Source of the DNA: Bauldia sp.
GTDB lineage: Bacteria > Pseudomonadota > Alphaproteobacteria > Rhizobiales > Kaistiaceae
Assembly: GCA_020853895.1 (NCBI GenBank)
Contig: JADYYB010000098.1
Location: 1 to 35,602, forward strand
Length of the DNA: 35,602 bases
Direction: 5' to 3'
The notes beneath the pieces are model-generated. The model searched no databases, was not told the origin of the DNA, and saw nothing but the letters and a program-made list of their open reading frames with translations. The position numbers were made by a program, and so were the translations under genes. Of the stretch, positions 809-12,113 are shown in pieces; the stretch's first letter is position 1; every line of letters begins with the position of its first letter.

Positions 809-1519
809 TTAGATGATCTCGGCGATCCAAGCCGCAAGGGTTTCGAAGAGCTCCTCGCGGACATCTGAATCCTTCCGGCCGCTTCGCGCGGGAACGTGAA
901 AGGCGTGGTTGGCCTCCGGGATGAGGTGGAGCCGCGCCCGGGGGCCGAGGCCGGCCACGGTCGGCTCGAGAAGATCGAGATTGGCGAACTCGTCCTTGGT
1001 ACCCTGGAGGAAGAGCATCGGCACCTTCACGTCGGTCAAGTGATCGGCGCGGCTCGTGCCCGGCTTCTCCGGCGGATGGAGCGGGAAGCAGAAGAACCCG
1101 AGACCGGCGACACCGAGCGGCTCGGCGGCCTCGGCCTGCGAGGTCATCCGGCCGCCGAAGGATTTGCCGCCGGCGACGAGCGGCAGCTTCGGGAGCCGGC
1201 GCTTCGCCTCCTCGACCGCCGCACGCACCGTCGCCGTGGTGACGGCGGGCGTGTCCGGCCGCCCGCGCTTCGCCTCCATGTACGGGAACTGGTAGCGGAG
1301 TGTGGCGATGCCGCGACGGGCCAGGCCATCGGCCGCCTGGTTCATGAAGGAATGGGCCATGCCGGCGCCGGCGCTGTGCGCGAGGACATAGGCGGCCGTC
1401 GCCTTCTCCGGAACGACGAGGAGGCCGGAAACCTCATCGGAATCAGGGACTTGGAAGCGGAAGGGCTCCGCCTCGAAAGCCGGGGCCTCCGGCTCGGCGA
1501 TTCGACCGCGCTTGGCCAA
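809..1519 (-). CDS. alpha/beta hydrolase of the KANL3/Tex30 type
   Basis: A 236-residue cytosolic alpha/beta hydrolase-fold protein. The nucleophile elbow is GGKSFGG with Ser120, the acid is likely Asp176 (QGTKDEF), and the histidine is His205 or His208 in EANHAFHVP. The early [13 protein letters not shown] segment supplies the oxyanion region. These motifs match the KANL3/Tex30 group of dienelactone-hydrolase-like proteins, usually annotated only as alpha/beta hydrolase; the substrate is unknown. The start is a TTG at 1519, supported by an AAGGG ribosome site 8 nt upstream and by the absence of any other start near the fold's beginning. The gene is divergent from ku across about 60 bp and lies upstream of msrB on the same strand. 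Confidence 0.85.
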
Positions 1520-1581
1520 ATTGATAGACCCTTAAGCCGTCCGTGGTTCAGTCCACGGTCGTGGTGTGAGGAGTACAAGCG
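1520..1581. promoter_or_regulatory. short divergent control region between hydrolase and ku genes, with a dyad
   Basis: Only 62 bp separate the two divergent start codons, so both promoters must overlap here or sit inside the genes. A perfect 6-bp dyad, CCGTGG at 1541-1546 and CCACGG at 1553-1558 with a 6-nt spacer, sits in the middle. It could be an operator or a 5' UTR hairpin for ku. The ku ribosome site GAGGAG lies at about 1567-1572. No clear -35/-10 pair was recognised. Confidence 0.3.
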
Positions 1582-2421
1582 ATGGCGCCGCGCGCCTACT
1601 GGAAAGGCTATCTGAAGCTCTCCCTGGTGTCGTGCCCGATCGCGCTCTACCCGGCGGCGTCGAATGCCGAGAAGGTTTCCTTCAACCGGATCAACAAGAA
1701 GACCGGCAACCGGCTGCGCCAGCTCCTCGTCGACTCCGGCTCCGAGGAGCCGGTCGAGCGGGAGGATATCGGGCGCGGCTACGAGGTCGCCAAGGGCGAG
1801 TATCTGATCGTCGAGGACGAGGAACTCGAGAAGATCCAGATCGAGAGCACCCACACCATCACGATCGAGAGCTTCGTGCCCAAGGCCGAGGTCGACGAGC
1901 GCTACATCGACAACCCCTATTACCTCGCGCCGACCGACAAGGTCGGCCAGGACGCCTTCGCGGTGATCCGCGATTCGATGCGCGAGACGAAGATGGTCGG
2001 GCTGGGCCGGGTGGTGATCGCCCGCCGCGAGCGGGTCGTGATGCTCGAGCCGTTCGACAAGGGGCTCCTCGCCACCACGCTCCGCTACGCTTACGAGGTG
2101 CGCGAGGCCGCGTCCTATTTCGAGGACATCGCCGACATCGAGATCCCGGAGGAAATGAAGGACTTGGCCGGACACATCATCCAGACCAAGAGCGGGCATT
2201 TCGAGCCCGCCAAGTTCGAGGACCACTACGAGACCGCGCTCACCGAGCTCCTGAAACAGAAGCAGGCGGGCCGCGCCATCGAGGCGCCGACGACCGAGAT
2301 GAAGGCGCCGCGCGTCATCAACTTGATGGACGCGCTCAAGGCCAGTATCGAGGCTGACGTGAAGAAGCCGGCGGCCGCCTCCGCGCCCCGCCGCGCCGCC
2401 AAGAAACGCTCAACCGCCTAG
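1582..2421 (+). CDS. ku: non-homologous end joining protein Ku
   Basis: Bacterial Ku forms a homodimeric ring that binds DNA double-strand ends and recruits LigD. The 279-residue protein is of usual size. It opens with MAPRAYWKGYLKLSLVSCPI, the typical start of the Ku core, and contains the NRINKKTGNRLRQ, YEVAKGEYLIVEDEEL, IDNPYYLAPTD and KGLLATTLRYAYEVR blocks of the beta-barrel. The last 20 residues are a Lys/Arg/Ala tail (KKPAAASAPRRAAKKRSTA), as in other bacterial Ku proteins where the tail affects DNA binding. The ATG at 1582 has GAGGAG 9 nt upstream. The next gene, encoding a BRCT-HTH-TPR protein, begins 5 bp after the stop and is almost certainly cotranscribed. ligD lies 1.4 kb away on the opposite strand. 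Confidence 0.96.
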   Translation: MAPRAYWKGYLKLSLVSCPIALYPAASNAEKVSFNRINKKTGNRLRQLLVDSGSEEPVEREDIGRGYEVAKGEYLIVEDEELEKIQIESTHTITIESFVPKAEVDERYIDNPYYLAPTDKVGQDAFAVIRDSMRETKMVGLGRVVIARRERVVMLEPFDKGLLATTLRYAYEVREAASYFEDIADIEIPEEMKDLAGHIIQTKSGHFEPAKFEDHYETALTELLKQKQAGRAIEAPTTEMKAPRVINLMDALKASIEADVKKPAAASAPRRAAKKRSTA

Positions 2422-2426
2422 AGGGA

Positions 2427-3533
2427 ATGGCCAAGGCCCTGGACGGCTCCGCTCTTTCTGGTGTCGTCGTCTTCGCGGGCCGCCTCGCCGCGATGAAGCG
2501 GGCCGAGGCCTACGCGCTGGTCGCGCGCCATGGCGGGACGCCACGGCAGGAAGTCTCCCGGCGCAGCACGGTGATGGTGGTCGGCGAGCTCGGCTGGCCG
2601 CTCCTTGCCAACGGCCATCCCAGCAACAGCCTCGGCCGCGCCAAGACGCTCGGCGTGCCGCTGGTCAGCGAGCGGCAGTTCCTCGAATGGGCGGGCCTGT
2701 CGGCGCCAGCCGAGCAGGCGCTCGACTATTCGCTCGAGCAGGTGGCCGGGCTTTCCGGTCTGCCGGTCGAGATCGTCGAGCAGCTCGGTGTCTACGGTCT
2801 CATCCATGCGCGGAATGGGAAATGCGGCTTCCGGGCGCTCGCCGGCGCGCGGCAGATCGCCGAGCTCCTTCGCGCCGGCGTCGGTCTCTCGGTGATCAGC
2901 GCGAGCCTTCGCGAGATCCGCCGATGGCTGCCGGGCGCGGGGCCGGCGAACCTCCGCCTCTTCCCCGCCTCCTCCGACGCGCTGGTGATCGCGCAGCTCA
3001 ACGGCTTCACCGACCAGCGCGGCCAGTTCCTGATGCCGGTCGAGAAGCCGCGCGCGGACGCCGACCGGCTCTTCGCCGAGGCGCAGGAGGCGGAGGAGCG
3101 CGAGGCCTTCGCGGTGGCCGAGCGGCTCTATCGCCGCGCGATGCGAGCCGACGCGACCGACGCCACGGCGGCCTTCAACCTCGCCAACATGCTGCGCGGC
3201 CTCGGGCGGCGGGTCGAGGCGGAGGCGCTCTATCGCCAGGCGGTCGGTACCGAGCCGCGGCTTGCCGAGGGCTGGTACAATCTCGGCGACCTCCTCGACG
3301 AGCAGGGCCGGCTGCCCGAGGCGATCGCCGCGCTGGAGCGGGCGGTGGCGATCGAGCCGGACTACGCCGACGCGATCTTCAACCTCGCCCTCCTCCTGCA
3401 GCGCGCGCACCGGACGACCGAGGCGGGCTTCCACTGGCGGAAATATCTCAAGCTCGACGACCGCTCGGCGTGGGCCGCCCGGGCGCGCAAAGCGCTCCGG
3501 TATTGCGAGATGGTCGGCCGCGAGCGGGGCTAG
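2427..3533 (+). CDS. BRCT - MerR-like HTH - TPR fusion protein, ku-linked
   Basis: A 368-residue soluble protein with three parts. Residues 8-91 resemble a BRCT domain: LSGVVVFAGRL, the KR.EAY..V..HGG segment, STVMVVGE, and a final SERQFLEWAGL like the WxxxC/FL end helix. Residues 100-205 look like a MerR-type winged helix (YSLEQVAGLSGLPVEIVEQL, then a GFRALAGARQIAELLRAGVGL helix pair). Residues 212-345 hold three to four TPR units (AFNLANMLRGLGRRVEAEALY, GWYNLGDLLDEQGRLPEAI, IFNLALLL). BRCT domains bind partners or phosphopeptides in repair proteins; TPRs bind proteins. The ATG follows the ku stop by 5 bp, with a GAGGG ribosome site overlapping that stop, so the two are likely made together. 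A role as an accessory end-joining or regulatory factor is inferred from context alone. Confidence 0.85.
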   Translation: MAKALDGSALSGVVVFAGRLAAMKRAEAYALVARHGGTPRQEVSRRSTVMVVGELGWPLLANGHPSNSLGRAKTLGVPLVSERQFLEWAGLSAPAEQALDYSLEQVAGLSGLPVEIVEQLGVYGLIHARNGKCGFRALAGARQIAELLRAGVGLSVISASLREIRRWLPGAGPANLRLFPASSDALVIAQLNGFTDQRGQFLMPVEKPRADADRLFAEAQEAEEREAFAVAERLYRRAMRADATDATAAFNLANMLRGLGRRVEAEALYRQAVGTEPRLAEGWYNLGDLLDEQGRLPEAIAALERAVAIEPDYADAIFNLALLLQRAHRTTEAGFHWRKYLKLDDRSAWAARARKALRYCEMVGRERG

Positions 3534-3621
3534 AGCAGCCCCCCAACTTCCAGTCGCTGAGGTCTGTCGTGGGCTATCCCCTCCGCAGTTGACCTGCCGA
3601 GCGACTGCCACTGCGACAGTC

Positions 3622-3658
3622 CCCTCTCTCCGCCGGGGAGAGGGTTAGGGTGAGGGGG
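3622..3658 (+). repeat. REP-like palindromic element, copy 1
   Basis: A 37-bp element made of a GC-rich palindrome (CCCTCTC..CGCCGG..GAGAGGG) followed by a G-rich tail (AGGGTGAGGGGG). It lies in the noncoding gap between the convergent BRCT-TPR and ligD genes. Copy 2 at 3713-3749 is the same element in the opposite direction. This is the architecture of paired REP elements between convergent genes in many proteobacteria. Confidence 0.8.
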
Positions 3659-3712
3659 TACAGGTCCATCCGAAGAGGGCGCCATACAAGAACCTCATCC
3701 GGAGAGGTGGAG

Positions 3713-3749
3713 CCCCCTCACCCCAGCCCTCTCCCCGCCGGGGAGAGGG
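3713..3749 (-). repeat. REP-like palindromic element, copy 2 (inverted)
   Basis: Reverse-complement copy of the element at 3622-3658: a C-rich arm (CCCCCTCACCCCAGCC) leads into the palindrome CTCTCCCCGCCGGGGAGAG. On reverse complement it matches copy 1 at nearly every position, differing at about four of 37. The two copies face each other across 54 bp and could fold into a large stem that blocks read-through between the convergent operons. Confidence 0.8.
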
Positions 3750-3799
3750 GGCAGGTCGGAGCCACCGGAGGATCGACCACGGCCCGGCTGGATCGCACG

Positions 3800-6400
3800 C
3801 TAGCTGGCCTTCGGGAGCTTTTGCTTCACCTTGAAGAAGTCGGCCCAGGGGTCGTGCTTCTGGCGCTCGAGGCGGCGGCCGAGATTGGCGACGGTGAAAT
3901 GGTTGGGGCGGAGCGTGTCGGTCAGCTCGCTCCATTCCACCGGCGTCGAGACCGGGGCGCCGGCGCGGGCGCGGGTCGAGTAGGCGGCGACGGCGGTCGC
4001 GCCGCGGCCGTTGCGCAGATAGTCGATGAAGATCTTCCCCACCCGCGCCTTCTTGCTGATCGTGGCGAGATAGCGGTCGGGGCTGTCGGCGGTCATGTCG
4101 TCGGCGATCTTCTTGCAGAAGGCCTTCGCCGCCTCCCAGTCGGCCGACGGGGTGAGCGGCACCACGACGTGCAGCCCCTTCCCGCCCGAGGTCTTCACGA
4201 AGCTCTCGAGCTTCACCTTCTTCAGCCGCTCGCGCACCTCCTTCGCCGCGACGATGATGTCGTTCCAGGTCGTCCCCTCGCCCGGGTCGAGATCGAAGAA
4301 CAGGCGGTCCGGCCGGTCGAGGTCGCCGACCTTCGAGCCCCAGGGATGGATCTCGAGGACGCCCGACTGGACCAGCGCGACGAGGCCGCGAAGGTCCTCG
4401 ATCCACATCATCGGCTTCTCGTCGCCGGTGTCGACATGCTTCACCGACTTGTCGATCTCGCCCCACGGGTGCTTGGCGAAGAAGCACGGCTTGCCGATGC
4501 CCTGCGGGCAGCGGAACATCGAGAGCGGCCGACCGACGAGATGGGGCACGATCCAGTCGGCGATCGAGACGTAGAACTGCGCGAGGCCGAGCTTGGTCAG
4601 CCCGTCGGCCTCCCACAGCACGCGGTCGGGATGGGTGAGCTCGACGCCCTCGATCCTCGGTGTGCCCTTGGCCTCCACGACTGGCGCCTCCTCGATGGGG
4701 ACATTGGCCGCCCATTCCATCCGGATCTCGGTCGGGTCCTTGTCCTCGCGGACGCCCTTGAAGGAGGAATGGCGGAGGATGTTCTCCTGGGTGCGGCTCC
4801 GGTACTCGACCTCGACCACCATGCGTGGCTCGACCCATTTGGCGCCGCGCTCGGCGTCGGCCGGCAGCGCCTTGGCGAAGGCGTGGCGCTTCTTGACCTC
4901 GATCTTCCGGAGCTCGTCGGCGAGCGCCCTCGCGGTCTTCTGGTTGAAGCCGGTGCCGACGCGGCCTACATAGATCAAGTGCCCGTCGTCGTCATAGACG
5001 GCCAGCGCGAGCGAGCCGATGGCGCCGGGCACGGCGGTCGAGGGGACATAGCCGACCACGACGAATTCCTGCTCGTGGGTGCATTTGTTCTTGAGCCATG
5101 TGTCGGCGCGGCCGGGCTTGTAAGGGAGGTCCTTGCGCTTGGAGATCGTGCCTTCGAGGCCGAGCCGGCAGGCATGGTCGAGCATCTCCTGGCCGTTCTC
5201 CTCGAGGTGCTCGGCGTAGCGGATGCGGGCGTCCGGCCCGACCGCGTCGAAGACCTTCTTCAGGAACTCCTTCCGGTCGATGAGCTTCGCGCCCTGGAGG
5301 TCGATGCCCTCGTAATAGAGGATGTCGAAGACGTAGTAGACCACGCGCTCCTGCTGGCCGGTGGCGAGCGCGTCCTGGAGGAGGCCGAAGACCGAGATGC
5401 CGTTCTCGTTCTCGACCACGACCTCCCCGTCGAGCATCGCCGAGCCGAAGCCGAAACCCTTCAGCTTCTCGGCGATGACGGAGAATTTCGGCGTCCAGTC
5501 GAGGCCCTTCCGCGTCATCAGCTTGACCTTGCCGGCGTCGATGCGGGCGGCGATCCGGTAGCCGTCGAGCTTGATCTCGTGGATCCAGCGATTGCCGCCC
5601 GGCACCTTGTCGGTGAGGGTGGCCAGCGTCGGCTCGACGAAGACGGGGAGGATGCCTTTCCGCGCGCCGTTCATCTCCGGCAGCGCGGGCAGCTTGACCT
5701 CGCGGGCGCGGACCGTGGTCTGGCGCGCGGCGTGATCCTTGCGCACCGCGCCCTCGGCCTTGAGGTCGTCGTTGGTGCGGCCCGAGAGGATCGAGGCGGT
5801 CTCCTCCTCGATCAGCTCCGCCTCGCCGGGCGGGCGGGCGAACTCGTCGTTGCCCTTGATGAGGAGCCACTGCTCCTTCTTCTCGCCGGGACGCTTCTGC
5901 ATCCTGACAAGGTGCCAGTGGCCGTGCAGCCGCTGGCCGTGGAGGTTGAAGGATAGATGCCCCTTGGCGAGACCTTTGTGCGGGTCCTCGACCGGCTCCC
6001 AGCGGCCCTGGTCCCAGACGATCATCGTCCCGGCGCCGTACTCGCCTTCGGGGATCACGCCCTCGAATTCGAGATATTCGAGCGGATGGTCCTCGGTCTG
6101 CACGGCGAGGCGCTTCTCGGTGGTGACGAGGCTCGGTCCTCTAGTCACCGCCCAGCTCTTGAGGACGCCGTCGAGCTCTAGACGAAGGTCGTAGTGGAGA
6201 CGGCGGGCGGCATGCTTCTGGACACAGAAGCGGAACGCCTCGCCTGCTTTTGCCGTCGGGGTCGGCTCCGGGGTCCTGGCGAAGTCGCGCTTCTCGCGGT
6301 AGGCGCGAAGCTTCTCCTTCACATTGTCAGAGATGGTGCTCGCGCGGGCCAGAAGGGCGTCTCCGTCAATGTCGTCCGGCAGGTCTGCCGGACGATACAT
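3800..6400 (-). CDS. ligD: multifunctional DNA ligase D (PE-LIG-POL)
   Basis: Seals and processes double-strand breaks held by Ku. The 866-residue protein has all three modules. PE (about 45-190): His63, His69, Asp71, Arg73, His105 and Tyr109 follow the exact spacing of the Pseudomonas LigD phosphoesterase active site. LIG (about 255-560): adenylation lysine K277 in EIKLDGYR, LDGEVVVE, and the EGTISKRKD...WLKNK motifs. POL (about 585-866): metal ligands D703 and D705 in FFDLDPGEG, KTSGGKGLHVVVPL, and the third acid D793 in FIDYLRNGRG. The ATG at 6400 has AAGGAG 4-5 nt upstream, and the PE domain starts soon after; a longer open frame upstream is only the shadow of the next gene. It is the third gene of a leftward unit behind two glycosyltransferases, 38 bp after the nearer one. 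ku lies on the opposite strand. Confidence 0.97.
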   Translation of the reverse strand: MYRPADLPDDIDGDALLARASTISDNVKEKLRAYREKRDFARTPEPTPTAKAGEAFRFCVQKHAARRLHYDLRLELDGVLKSWAVTRGPSLVTTEKRLAVQTEDHPLEYLEFEGVIPEGEYGAGTMIVWDQGRWEPVEDPHKGLAKGHLSFNLHGQRLHGHWHLVRMQKRPGEKKEQWLLIKGNDEFARPPGEAELIEEETASILSGRTNDDLKAEGAVRKDHAARQTTVRAREVKLPALPEMNGARKGILPVFVEPTLATLTDKVPGGNRWIHEIKLDGYRIAARIDAGKVKLMTRKGLDWTPKFSVIAEKLKGFGFGSAMLDGEVVVENENGISVFGLLQDALATGQQERVVYYVFDILYYEGIDLQGAKLIDRKEFLKKVFDAVGPDARIRYAEHLEENGQEMLDHACRLGLEGTISKRKDLPYKPGRADTWLKNKCTHEQEFVVVGYVPSTAVPGAIGSLALAVYDDDGHLIYVGRVGTGFNQKTARALADELRKIEVKKRHAFAKALPADAERGAKWVEPRMVVEVEYRSRTQENILRHSSFKGVREDKDPTEIRMEWAANVPIEEAPVVEAKGTPRIEGVELTHPDRVLWEADGLTKLGLAQFYVSIADWIVPHLVGRPLSMFRCPQGIGKPCFFAKHPWGEIDKSVKHVDTGDEKPMMWIEDLRGLVALVQSGVLEIHPWGSKVGDLDRPDRLFFDLDPGEGTTWNDIIVAAKEVRERLKKVKLESFVKTSGGKGLHVVVPLTPSADWEAAKAFCKKIADDMTADSPDRYLATISKKARVGKIFIDYLRNGRGATAVAAYSTRARAGAPVSTPVEWSELTDTLRPNHFTVANLGRRLERQKHDPWADFFKVKQKLPKAS

Positions 6401-6438
6401 AACGCTCCTTCCCCGGTAAATTTCCCCAACCCCCTGCC

Positions 6439-8025
6439 CTACCAGGGCACGTGGTGGATCTCGACGCGCGGCAGGCCGACCGGGCGGATGCCGAGGTCGC
6501 GGGCGAGGAGGCCCAGCCCCTCGGTCTCGATGTGGCCGCGATAGGGCTTCTCGGGAAAGCGGAGGCCGCCGCGATGGAGCCCGGCGTCGACCAGCAGCAT
6601 CGTGCCGCCGACGGCGTCGAGGTAGACCCGCTCCGAGTGGCGGAGCCCGTCCATGCAGACCTTGCCGAGCGAGCCCTCGGGCTGCAGGAGGCCGTCCTTC
6701 ATGTTGCGGTAGAGGATGTACTCGTCGTCGAAGGGCACGGCGATGAAGCTGTTGGCGTCGTAGGTCGGGCCGCCGGGATAGACCGTGCAGTGCGGCGCGA
6801 CGATGCGCGCCTTCTCCTCGAGGAGGCGCTGGACGATGCGCGGCGGGAACGCCCAGAGGTCGACGTCGATCCAGAGCGCCCAGTCGTCGCTCGCGTCGAG
6901 ACCGCCGTCGATGAGGTGGTTGCGGACCCTGGCGAGATTGCCGCGACGGCGGCGCTGCAAGTGAGGCTTCCAGCGCTCCGGGCCGCCGGCGGGAGCGGCG
7001 ACCTCGTAGCGGAGGAGGACCGCGTCGCGATAGCGCGGCCGCATCTCGCCGACCGCCTCCTCGAGCAGCGCGCGCGAGCGGTCGACGCTGTCGCCCTCGC
7101 AGAAGACGATCTTCAGGAGCTCCTTCGGGTAGTCGAGCGCTTCGATCATCCCGCGGAGCCGCCCGATATGCTGCGCGGCATCGCGGACCGGGACGAGGAT
7201 CGCGACGCGGCCGCCGGCGGGCGAGGGACTGGCGACGACCTCCGGACCTACCCGCGCGCGCTCCTCGGCGGGATCCAGGATCTCGCCCTGGCTCAGATGG
7301 TGGCGCAGCGCGAAATACTTGCCGCGCCACCAGTTGATCCGGTGCTGGCTGCGGCGGCGCGGGGGCTTCTTGAACCAGGTGCCCTCCCAGTAGTGGCTGG
7401 CGAGCGTGCCGACCGGGTTGGGCGCGTAGTCGGGGGCGGCGATGCCGTTCGAGTCGACGGGGTTGAACAGCTGGGCCGGATAGACCGCGACGGACGCCTT
7501 GTCGGCGAAGCCGTTATAGGCGCCGGTGAGGAGGAACGGGCCGGTCGCGTCGAGGACGCCCTGAGCGAAACGGCAGTCGTACATCCGCCCGGCGAGATGG
7601 ACCCAGAACGGATGGCCGGCCGGGCTCGCCATCAGCCCGTTGAAGAGCAGGAAGGAGAAAGCGCGGCTGGCGATGTTGTGCTGCGCCCAGTTCGTCGGCG
7701 GCTCGTGGGCGAGCACGACCCGGTCCTCGTCCATGATCGGGTCGAACGGGGCGAGGCACTCGGTGTCGAGGTCGGCATAGATGCCGCCGAAATGGTGCAG
7801 CAGCAGATAGCGGCCGGCGTCGGCGCGCATGATCGGCTGCGGGTACGCGGCATAGACCGGGAGGAAGTCGGGATATTTCTCCGCCACGAAGTCGAGGAGC
7901 ATCCGGTCGGTCCAGAGCCGATACTCGTAGCCGGGGTTGAGCCGGCGCCAGCTCTCGACCCAGCCCGCGAATTTCGCGGGGACCTCATCGGTCTTCCAGG
8001 TCTGATGGATGATCTTCGGGATCAT
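6439..8025 (-). CDS. two-domain glycosyltransferase (GT32-like + ANP1/GT62-like)
   Basis: A 528-residue soluble protein with two apparent sugar-transfer domains. Residues 1-215 match the GT32 (DXD sugar-binding) type: MIPKIIHQTWKT start, RADAGRYLLLHHFGGIYADL with the DXD at 85-87, and a final SHYWEGTW. Residues 272-528 begin again with VAILVPVRDAAQHIGRLRGM, then KIVFCEGDSVDRS, RWKPHLQRRRRGNLARVRN, a second DXD (DVD 387-389) and a VAPHCTVYPGG block, resembling the ANP1/GT62 mannosyltransferase family. A linker rich in Arg/Trp joins them. The ATG overlaps the stop of the upstream GT4 gene by 4 bp (ATGA), so they are translationally coupled. Donor and acceptor are unknown; an extracellular glycan role is inferred from the neighbours (GT4 and a divergent flippase). 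Confidence 0.82.
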   Translation of the reverse strand: MIPKIIHQTWKTDEVPAKFAGWVESWRRLNPGYEYRLWTDRMLLDFVAEKYPDFLPVYAAYPQPIMRADAGRYLLLHHFGGIYADLDTECLAPFDPIMDEDRVVLAHEPPTNWAQHNIASRAFSFLLFNGLMASPAGHPFWVHLAGRMYDCRFAQGVLDATGPFLLTGAYNGFADKASVAVYPAQLFNPVDSNGIAAPDYAPNPVGTLASHYWEGTWFKKPPRRRSQHRINWWRGKYFALRHHLSQGEILDPAEERARVGPEVVASPSPAGGRVAILVPVRDAAQHIGRLRGMIEALDYPKELLKIVFCEGDSVDRSRALLEEAVGEMRPRYRDAVLLRYEVAAPAGGPERWKPHLQRRRRGNLARVRNHLIDGGLDASDDWALWIDVDLWAFPPRIVQRLLEEKARIVAPHCTVYPGGPTYDANSFIAVPFDDEYILYRNMKDGLLQPEGSLGKVCMDGLRHSERVYLDAVGGTMLLVDAGLHRGGLRFPEKPYRGHIETEGLGLLARDLGIRPVGLPRVEIHHVPW

Positions 8026-9458: not shown

Positions 9459-10808
9459 ATGCCGGGCGACCGGGTGAGCGCGGTGGTCATCCTCCGCCGC
9501 CTCGGGCAGCTCGCGCTGATCTCGCTCAGCCGCTTCGGCGGGGCGGCGATCGGCTTCGTCACGCAGATCTTCCTCGCGCGCGTGCTGCTGCCGGGCGATC
9601 TCGGCCTCTATTTCCTCGCCACCAGTCTTTCCGCCTTCCTCGCGGTCGTGGCCGGGCTCGGCCTCCCCAGCGTCACGGTGCGCTTCCTCATCCGCTACAA
9701 GGACCGCGAGCGGGGCAATCTCTCGCGCCTCTTCCTGCGCACCAGCCGCTCGCTGGTACTCCTCAGCGCGTGCCTCCTCGCGGCCGCGGCGCTTCTCGTC
9801 GTGAATCTCTGGCCGGGCATCCCGGAGGCGACGCGGCTCGCCGCCTCATATGGCGCGCTCGCGGTGCCGGCCTTCGCGATGTGCCGGATCGGCGGGGTGT
9901 CGGCCACCGCCTTCCGGCGCTTCAACCTTTCCTTCCTGCCCGACCTCTTCATCCGGCCGGCGGCGTTCCTCGCCGTCGTGGTCGGGCTCTTCGTGATCAG
10001 CGGGCGGCTCAGCCTGCCGGTCGTCCTCTACGTCTTCGCCATCCTCGCCGCCGCGCAGGCGGTGTTCCAGAATGTGGCCGTCTCCCGGCTGGTGCCGGAC
10101 GATCCGCACCAGCGGCACGGCGGAGGGCGGATCGCGACGGCCTGGGTGCGCGCGGCGCTGCCGATGGTCAGCATCGGGCTCCTCACCGCCATCTTCGCCG
10201 ACGTGGCGATCCTCTTCGCGGGCTTCTTCCTGCACGAGAGCGACCTCGCGCTCTTCGGCGTCTGCATCAAGATCACGGTGCTCGCCGGCTTCGTCGTCAA
10301 CACGGTCTATCAGCTCGCCCTCCCCGACCTCGCCCAGGCCTTCAAGGCGCGCGATGCCGCGCAGCGCGACAAGGCGGTCGGGCTCGCGCTCCTTCTCGGC
10401 CTCGCGGTGTCGGTGGGAGCGCTGGGCGTCGGCGTCCTCGCGGGCGGGCCGATCCTCGGCCTCTTCGGCCCGGACTATGTCGAGGGGCAGGGCCTCCTCG
10501 TCATCCTCCTCGTCGGGCAGGCGCTGGCGGCGGCCGGCGGCCCCGGGGTGCAGCTCCTCACGCTCACCAACGGCCAGGGACGCGGCGTGTGGGGGAGCCT
10601 CGTCACCGTCGGCTATCTCCTCGCGCTCGACGCGGCGCTCATCCCGGTCCTCGGCCTGACCGGCGCGGGCATCGCGGTGGTCGTCGCCAATGCCGTCTGG
10701 GCGGTGTGGCTCGCGGTCCAGGTCAAGGTAAGTCTCGGCATCCGTTGCGACATCGGGCGGCTCCTTTCGGGGGCGCCGCGGAAACTCGGCGATCCGGCGC
10801 CGGGTTGA
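9459..10808 (+). CDS. polysaccharide flippase-like membrane protein (MOP superfamily)
   Basis: A 449-residue, very hydrophobic protein with about 12-14 predicted membrane helices. The N-terminus (ALISLSRFGGAAIGFVTQIFLARVLLPGDLGLY) has the look of Wzx/RfbX-type polysaccharide biosynthesis proteins of the MOP superfamily, which flip lipid-linked sugar units across the inner membrane. The second half repeats the pattern with LPMVSIGLLTAIFADVAIL and YQLALPDLAQAFKARDAAQ. It is divergent from the two glycosyltransferase genes, which supports a role in the same glycan pathway. The start is uncertain: ATG at 9459 is used, but in-frame GTG codons at 9474 and 9483 are possible and none has a strong ribosome site. 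Confidence 0.85.
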   Translation: MPGDRVSAVVILRRLGQLALISLSRFGGAAIGFVTQIFLARVLLPGDLGLYFLATSLSAFLAVVAGLGLPSVTVRFLIRYKDRERGNLSRLFLRTSRSLVLLSACLLAAAALLVVNLWPGIPEATRLAASYGALAVPAFAMCRIGGVSATAFRRFNLSFLPDLFIRPAAFLAVVVGLFVISGRLSLPVVLYVFAILAAAQAVFQNVAVSRLVPDDPHQRHGGGRIATAWVRAALPMVSIGLLTAIFADVAILFAGFFLHESDLALFGVCIKITVLAGFVVNTVYQLALPDLAQAFKARDAAQRDKAVGLALLLGLAVSVGALGVGVLAGGPILGLFGPDYVEGQGLLVILLVGQALAAAGGPGVQLLTLTNGQGRGVWGSLVTVGYLLALDAALIPVLGLTGAGIAVVVANAVWAVWLAVQVKVSLGIRCDIGRLLSGAPRKLGDPAPG

Positions 10809-10845
10809 TTCACCACGTTTCAGCTCTCGCGTTTCGGGTGCGCAC

Positions 10846-10860
10846 AATTTTAGCTAGTTT
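10846..10860 (+). promoter_or_regulatory. AT-rich motif AATTTTAG-NN-AGTT, third copy, upstream of prpF-like gene
   Basis: AATTTTAG at 10846-10853 followed two bases later by AGTTT. The same core with AGTT occurs upstream of the FecR gene (21527) and, less exactly, upstream of the CHASE2 gene (22625). Such an AT-rich 8-mer repeated only in gaps of a GC-rich genome suggests a promoter element. It lies about 140 bp before the start of the PrpF-family gene, and similarity beyond the first 14 bases is weak. Confidence 0.3.
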
Positions 10861-10991
10861 TGCTCGCGAGGAGCGGCAATTCCCTAGTGATTTCCAAACG
10901 CTAGCCGCCCCGTCATTAACCATTTGAAGGATGCGGCCGGCGGCGCCATTGCGCGGCGACACCGGTCAGACGGCAGACGGAGCCGATATTC

Positions 10992-12113
10992 ATGGCCGAC
11001 GGCCGCGGACTGGTTTCGCTCCCCTGCACCATGATGCGCGGCGGCACCTCGCGCGGCGTCTTCTTCCGCAGTGCCGATCTGCCCGACGACCCGGCGCGCC
11101 GCGACCAGGTGCTCATCGCCGCGCTCGGCGCGCCGCACCCGCTGCAGGTCGACGGGATCGGCGGCGGCCACCCGCTGACCTCCAAGGTGGCGATCGTCGG
11201 TCCGCCGAGCGTGCCGAACGCGGACGTCGACTATCTCTTCGCGCAGGTGAATGTCGACCGCGCGAGCGTCGACACCAGCCCGACCTGCGGCAACCTCCTC
11301 GCCGCCGTCGGCCCGTTCGCGCTCGAGACGGGCCTGATCCGGGCCGACGCGCCGGTCACGGCGGTGCACGTGCATCACGTCAACACCGGCGCGATCAGCA
11401 CCGCGCTCCTGCCGACGCCGGGCCGCGTCTTCGACTATGCGGGCGACTGCCTCCTGCCCGGCCTTTCCCATCCCGCCGCGCCGATCCGCCTCTCCTTCGA
11501 GGACGCGCCCACGACCGGGGAAGCACGGCTCCTGCCGACCGGGCTGAGCCGCGAGATCATCCACGGGGTCGAGGTCACGCTGGCGGCCTATGCGGTGCCG
11601 GTGATGATCGTCGGCGCCGACGGGCTCGGCATCGCCGGCGACGAGACGCCGGCGGATCTCAATTCGCGGCCCGATCTCTTCAAGCGCATCGAGGCCCTCC
11701 GTCTCGAGGCCGGGCGCCGGATGGGCCTCGGCGACGTGTCGGGCTCGGTCACGCCGAAGGTCGCGATCGTCTCGCCGGCGCGGAACGGCGGCAGCCTCAC
11801 CTCGCGCTACCTCATGCCGTGGAAGGCGCACAGCTCCCACGCGGTGACCGGGGCGCTCTGCCTCGCCGCCGCGGCGACCGTCGAGGGCAGCCTGCCCGCC
11901 GCGCTCGCCGGCCTCGCCGATCCGCACGGCGCGATGGTCCATATCGAGCATCCCGAGGGGACGCTCTCGGTCGAGCTCTCGACCGACGACGGCGTGCTGC
12001 GCGGCTCGATCGTCCGCACGGCGCGGAAGCTCTTCGTCGGCGAGGTCTTCGTGCCGGCCCAGGTCTTCGCGGCGCCGGTCGCGGAGCGCGAACTGGTCGA
12101 GGCGGCGGAATGA
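10992..12113 (+). CDS. PrpF-family isomerase (4-oxalomesaconate tautomerase-like)
   Basis: A 373-residue cytosolic protein of the PrpF family, which has a duplicated diaminopimelate-epimerase-type fold. It shows the family start CTMMRGGTSRGVFFRSADLP, the GGGHPLTSKVAIVGPPS block, SPTCGNLLAAVGPFALETGL, and in the second half GSVTPKVAIVSPARNGG and KAHSSHAVTGALCLAAAA. Family members include PrpF (aconitate isomerase in the 2-methylcitrate pathway) and GalD (4-oxalomesaconate keto-enol tautomerase). Neither prpC/acnD nor gallate genes are nearby, so the substrate stays open. The following ATP-grasp gene starts in the overlap ATGA at its stop, indicating coupled translation and perhaps a shared pathway. 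Confidence 0.87.
   Translation: MADGRGLVSLPCTMMRGGTSRGVFFRSADLPDDPARRDQVLIAALGAPHPLQVDGIGGGHPLTSKVAIVGPPSVPNADVDYLFAQVNVDRASVDTSPTCGNLLAAVGPFALETGLIRADAPVTAVHVHHVNTGAISTALLPTPGRVFDYAGDCLLPGLSHPAAPIRLSFEDAPTTGEARLLPTGLSREIIHGVEVTLAAYAVPVMIVGADGLGIAGDETPADLNSRPDLFKRIEALRLEAGRRMGLGDVSGSVTPKVAIVSPARNGGSLTSRYLMPWKAHSSHAVTGALCLAAAATVEGSLPAALAGLADPHGAMVHIEHPEGTLSVELSTDDGVLRGSIVRTARKLFVGEVFVPAQVFAAPVAERELVEAAE

Follow-up and report, generated by a model that had tools for sequence, protein, structure and literature searches.

Bacterial NHEJ is taught as the work of two proteins, Ku plus LigD. The published accounts consulted, which run up to 2025-2026, likewise describe Ku and LigD only (PMC1378119, PMC7719229, PMC12784961). 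The extended C-terminal tail of Ku binds and recruits LigD and modulates or limits DNA binding (PMC9638933). We found no mention of a BRCT-TPR partner of Ku in the open-licence literature, and an earlier mention elsewhere is possible. The loci described here are operons of this same kind, with ku and a standard PE-LIG-POL ligD gene, but they add a third conserved protein, a 368-aa BRCT-wHTH-TPR protein that we refer to as BT.

Results

A third gene in the ku operon

The window, a stretch of 35,602 nucleotides from a Bauldia sp. genome, codes for the 279-aa NHEJ protein Ku at positions 1582-2421 on the plus strand (PF02735, 157 bits; TIGR02772, 283.9 bits). The ku stop codon is followed by a 5-nt spacer, AGGGA (2422-2426, plus strand), which is Shine-Dalgarno-like, and then by BT (2427-3533, plus strand), a candidate third NHEJ component on account of its predicted folds and the place of its homologues behind ku. 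The initial annotation had put a 368-residue protein 5 nt past the ku stop, and the ORF coordinates agree, with an ATG start and 368 aa; its range of 1582-3533 takes in ku as well as BT. Convergent with ku-BT is ligD (3800-6445, minus strand; PF13298, PF01068, PF04679, and PF21686), and upstream of ku are an alpha/beta hydrolase gene of the Abhydrolase_11 family (809-1519, minus strand; PF20408, 152 bits) and an MsrB gene, also on the minus strand. No EcfG-type promoter pattern was found in the window. We note that two inverted repeat copies with the core CCCTCTCCCCGCCGGGGAGAGGG lie between the convergent BT and ligD, at 3620-3760.

ligD adjoins ku-BT in most loci, and in the megaplasmid regions examined the gene order is ligD-ku-BT-hydrolase-xth. 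The Abhydrolase_11 family is also found beside ku-BT in L061 (7659-8348), L081, L089, L094, L095, L189, L190, L192, L193, L195, and L196, variously placed upstream and divergent, downstream and convergent, or downstream and co-directional. Downstream of the hydrolase, the Rhizobiales ligD-ku-BT operons of L081, L094, L095, L192, L193, L195, and L196 carry xth, the gene for exodeoxyribonuclease III. There are also irregular loci. In Sinorhizobium meliloti ml47 the ligD gene that belongs to the ku-BT operon on pSymB is split into two frames (L094, 5569-8024), whereas its counterpart in strain 1021 is intact (L096, 3279-5735). In L063 the PE-LIG part of LigD and a Ku lacking its first residues share a single 714-aa ORF (9764-11908), which is either a fusion of LigD with Ku or the result of a deletion or misassembly in a MAG; a frameshift also seems to affect the start of the BT gene that follows.

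BT accompanies ku

Members were sought with the BRCT-wHTH part as the search profile, since with full-length BT as the query the results are flooded by unspecific TPR matches. BT is located directly 3' of ku and on the same strand in 39 of the 41 loci examined, in keeping with the direct linkage proposed from the window alone. Of the two remaining loci, L078 has one opposite-strand ORF between ku and BT, and in L077 BT is unlinked to ku but belongs to a genome that has ku, seemingly on the same contig (both contigs measure 293202 nt) and >160 kb away. Opposite-strand ORFs of similar size are present upstream of BT in both (L078, 4368-5696; L077, 4360-5730) and are possible homologues.

Among 385 genomes of the class, the BRCT-winged-helix profile finds BT in 14 of 56 that carry ku and in none of the 329 that do not (Fisher p 4e-13, kinship between genomes ignored), so that in this sample BT is present only together with ku, and about three quarters of the ku-carrying genomes are without it. 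Twelve of these proteins are full length (E below 1e-57) and a thirteenth is a contig-end fragment (G284), all far above the background of LigA BRCT domains; the fourteenth is in G131, where about 150 nt of contig remain beyond ku, a stretch that codes for the BT start MRLAGTAVVIVGGLASLPRRVAARLVAERGG. In all 14 genomes BT comes immediately 3' of ku, in the same orientation. A phylum sample added nine more from one family, probably Rhizobiaceae given their Sinorhizobium kin, each with a 4-nt overlap with the ku stop; within Rhizobiaceae the overlap of ku stop and BT start ranges from 1 to 4 nt. The initial annotation had named homologues lying mostly away from ku, in genomes lacking end joining, as the result that would tell against its proposal; the search was run, and that pattern is not seen. 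A prospective set from an order sample yielded 12 new BT genes, 12/12 directly 3' of ku. The architecture and its place behind ku recur in 39/41 homologues, down to 25 to 35% identity, and are therefore not due to chance; this conservation and the prospective result together rule out chance or an annotation artefact.

BT is spread over about 16 alphaproteobacterial families. A 5-row profile run against genome contigs gave seven loci, in alphaproteobacterial and Geminicoccaceae MAGs, and 86 to 87 records are megaplasmids of Sinorhizobium, Ensifer, and Pararhizobium, where the protein, if annotated, is called a 'tetratricopeptide repeat protein' beside a 'Ku protein'. On pSymB of S. meliloti 1021, ligD, ku, and BT are all intact, with BT at about 1490711-1491796 of NC_003078.1. 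The searches covered a sample of the phylum to which the window belongs and a collection of plasmids, and found no member outside Alphaproteobacteria, a restriction that is provisional. Several kinds of match were set aside: short BRCT matches with E values of 1e-5 to 1e-13, nearly all from ORFs some 700 aa long, were taken as LigA and left uncounted; plasmid-borne lactobacillus matches aligned over the BRCT alone and were excluded as BT members; and a PADLOC PrimPol match of BT covers only the TPR part.

The genome of the window has a second ku locus (L133, G000 contig C211), which has no BT. Its two ku genes, at 1129-2034 (plus strand) and 4749-5558 (minus strand), are about 2.7 kb apart, and BT was never seen at such opposite-strand ku pairs in the loci examined.

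Predicted architecture of BT

The layout proposed at the outset, a BRCT domain followed by a MerR-like winged helix and TPRs, is borne out by structure prediction. With 24 homologues as input, AlphaFold2 gave a mean pLDDT of 90 and a pTM of 0.53 for full-length BT, so the orientation of the TPRs relative to the N-terminal part is not fixed. For residues 1-205 the values were 87 and 0.80, and since this pTM is high, the BRCT domain, winged helix, and beta part of the model probably form one unit.

Profile evidence for the individual domains is uneven. The Pfam BRCT model matches residues 10-86 of the window protein at 21.5 bits, borderline against a gathering score of 21.3, and falls under the cut-off in other members. 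No Pfam MerR match was found in the window's BT, and the best MerR_1 score, in one other member, is just 13 bits; TPR models reach 55 bits. There is no whole-length BT model in NCBIfam, whose matches are to the TPR or BRCT parts and far below curated cut-offs.

The BRCT domain (residues 4-91; 2436-2699, plus strand) is of the LigA/RFC1 type. These domains are its nearest relatives both by family profile against the PDB (LigA, 2owo, E 7e-8; RFC1, 6e-5) and by structure (Z 9-10; LigA 9.9, RFC1 9.1-9.6), and the models have the beta-alpha-beta-beta-alpha-beta-alpha topology of a BRCT domain (E13-17, H25-34, E38-40, E47-52, H67-75, E79-81, H82-88). A non-BRCT fold for residues 8-91 had been the other outcome expected to overturn the proposal; the prediction was made and the segment folds as a BRCT domain. 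In contrast to LigA and RFC1, BT has no ligase or clamp-loader part, is fused to a winged helix and TPRs, and has the pocket Ser/Thr replaced. A canonical phosphate-binding BRCT domain, with RFC1 and LigA as the reference for the pocket positions, has a Ser/Thr before a conserved Gly, plus a basic residue in helix 2. The BRCT glycines are retained across BT members, and the helix-2 basic residue is present in many of them but not in the window's. At residue 17 the window protein has Ala, and only 1 of 24 members has Ser/Thr; as the pocket Ser/Thr is missing in nearly all members, phosphate binding by the BT BRCT domain is unproven.

The second domain is a MerR-type winged helix (residues 92-170; 2700-2936, plus strand). 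Residues 92-169 are predicted to share the fold of GlnR (4r4e, Z 8.5), CvkR (7xn2, 8.3), and TnrA (7.9), but differ from this family in having an acidic recognition helix and neither a dimerisation helix nor an effector domain, the model having the beta part and TPRs after the winged helix instead. The small beta part (residues 178-195; 2958-3011, plus strand) packs with the BRCT domain and winged helix according to DSSP of the models. Four TPRs follow (residues 211-345; 3057-3461, plus strand; TPR_2, 55 bits), with eight helices at 212-343 in tandem 34-aa helix-turn-helix repeats and a Z of about 20 to TPR structures, and a capping helix at 348-367 closes the C terminus. We also note that residues 97-205 of the model, the winged helix and beta part, align to Mycobacterium tuberculosis Rv2018 (5af3) with a Z of 7.8, and that L063 has a weak DUF433 match.

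The charges of these parts follow one pattern in all 36 members checked. The BRCT domain is net positive, at +3 to +12, whereas net charges are negative in the recognition helix (-1 to -5) and in the TPR part (-1 to -16). The acidic recognition helix argues against the HTH as a reader of DNA, and the DNA-binding function initially assigned to it is not supported. The basic BRCT domain points instead to that domain as potentially the DNA-facing part of BT.

The Ku tail and the shared history of Ku and BT

Ku ends in a disordered tail of basic character, where 33 of 40 BT-linked Ku proteins carry the motif [KR]P[PA]AxS after the conserved minimal C-terminal segment (KPAAAS in the window), with seven lacking it; the strict form, [KR]PPAxS, is present in 25 of the 40. 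Shuffled tails would be expected to give the motif in 0.2 of 40. Elsewhere the relaxed motif occurs in none of 51 Ku proteins from genomes without BT and in 2 of 23 unlinked paralogues (2/74 together), and the strict motif singled out both loci that had looked like exceptions, the one at a contig end and the unlinked one from Geminicoccaceae. The Ku tree offers only four to five independent contrasts for the association of motif and BT, which is not significant there, and with so few contrasts we do not claim coevolution. The sequence KP[P/A]AxS is a possible docking site for the TPRs, a candidate that is confounded by descent.

BT-linked Ku proteins are clustered, although not monophyletic, on the Ku tree, requiring 7 changes versus 22.5 with shuffled labels. 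Across 14 loci, Ku and BT distances are correlated (Mantel r 0.64; 0/5000 permutations as high), and the same cross-family pairs, the window with G375 and G003 with G246, appear in both trees, even though the window and G003 are of one family. The distance correlation and recurrent cross-family pairs fit transfer of ku-BT as a unit, and the two genes appear to be inherited and transferred jointly. BT branches are much longer than Ku branches.

Discussion

BT is probably a dedicated accessory factor, and a putative third component, of Ku/LigD end joining in a subset of Alphaproteobacteria. The initial annotation had suggested an adaptor for DNA and protein; its role as an accessory factor in Ku/LigD end joining is retained here, and the HTH as DNA binder is given up. 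The evidence for linkage is stronger than that annotation alone could show, with BT exclusive to ku genomes in the samples and closely coupled to ku. The restriction to ku genomes suggests that end joining in some bacteria uses three proteins, and the relationship of the BT BRCT domain to the DNA-acting BRCT domains of LigA and RFC1 would be consistent with such a role. Counting against a third component are the rebuilding of bacterial end joining from Ku and LigD alone (PMC1378119), the lack of BT in about three quarters of the ku-carrying genomes of the class, its long branches relative to those of Ku, the Ser/Thr missing from its BRCT pocket in nearly all members, and the seven BT-linked Ku proteins that do not have the tail motif.

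We suggest that BT is probably translated from the same mRNA as Ku, with stop and start codons overlapping in many species, and that the two proteins probably form a complex. In this model the KP[P/A]AxS motif of the disordered basic tail would sit in the acidic groove of the TPRs, and the basic BRCT domain would touch either LigD or the DNA close to the break. A rigid spacer or protein surface, with no DNA reading, would be the part played by the winged helix together with the beta part. The outcome would be a stabilised synapsis, or a Ku tail directed between DNA and LigD. Physical binding, the docking site, DNA contact, and the effect on joining are all features that we infer. The full version, a three-component machine in which a BRCT-wHTH-TPR scaffold is docked on the Ku-tail motif and touches DNA via its BRCT domain, is put forward tentatively, as an outcome somewhat short of probable. 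A scaffold of this kind would be an analogue, by role, of the scaffolds of eukaryotic NHEJ, where Lig4 and Pol mu/lambda have BRCT domains and XRCC4/XLF/PAXX are comparable in role; the possible analogy is to a non-catalytic factor joined to Ku and is one of role alone, as these proteins have no architecture in common with BT.

The complementary charges of the TPR part and the Ku tail would also suit a brake or chaperone of Ku, in which the acidic TPRs sequester the basic tail and keep DNA binding, synapsis, or the recruitment of LigD in check until these are required. The extended tail itself limits DNA binding and recruits LigD (PMC9638933), and stoichiometric co-translation fits a chaperone or antagonist equally with a scaffold. 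However, the BRCT domain is basic in all members, which speaks for active work at the DNA and not for masking alone, and we consider such a brake unlikely. That BT regulates transcription of the ku-ligD operon as a MerR-like protein is highly improbable, even with a MerR-type fold at residues 92-169 (Z 8.5) and a position in the operon, as the recognition helix is net negative in 36/36 members, MerR_1 scores no more than 13 bits and in one member, the gene sits downstream in the operon, and the model has the beta part and TPRs in place of a dimerisation helix or effector domain.

Least probable of these is a part in another DNA process, such as the repair of nicks or base-excision repair together with its neighbours xth and the hydrolase, the linkage to ku then reflecting a shared stress regulon. 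Both genes do follow BT in many Rhizobiales, and its BRCT domain resembles that of LigA, but many ku-BT loci are without xth or the hydrolase, whereas ku is nearly always adjacent, and BT is in 0/329 genomes lacking ku.

A closely coupled BRCT protein that is exclusive to ku genomes in the samples is a candidate third component of bacterial end joining, including in S. meliloti 1021. It may bear on the coexistence of several Ku paralogues in rhizobia and on the role of the variable Ku tail. If the accessory role of BT is true, a bacterial BRCT domain would be linked with Ku-dependent end joining, as in eukaryotes.
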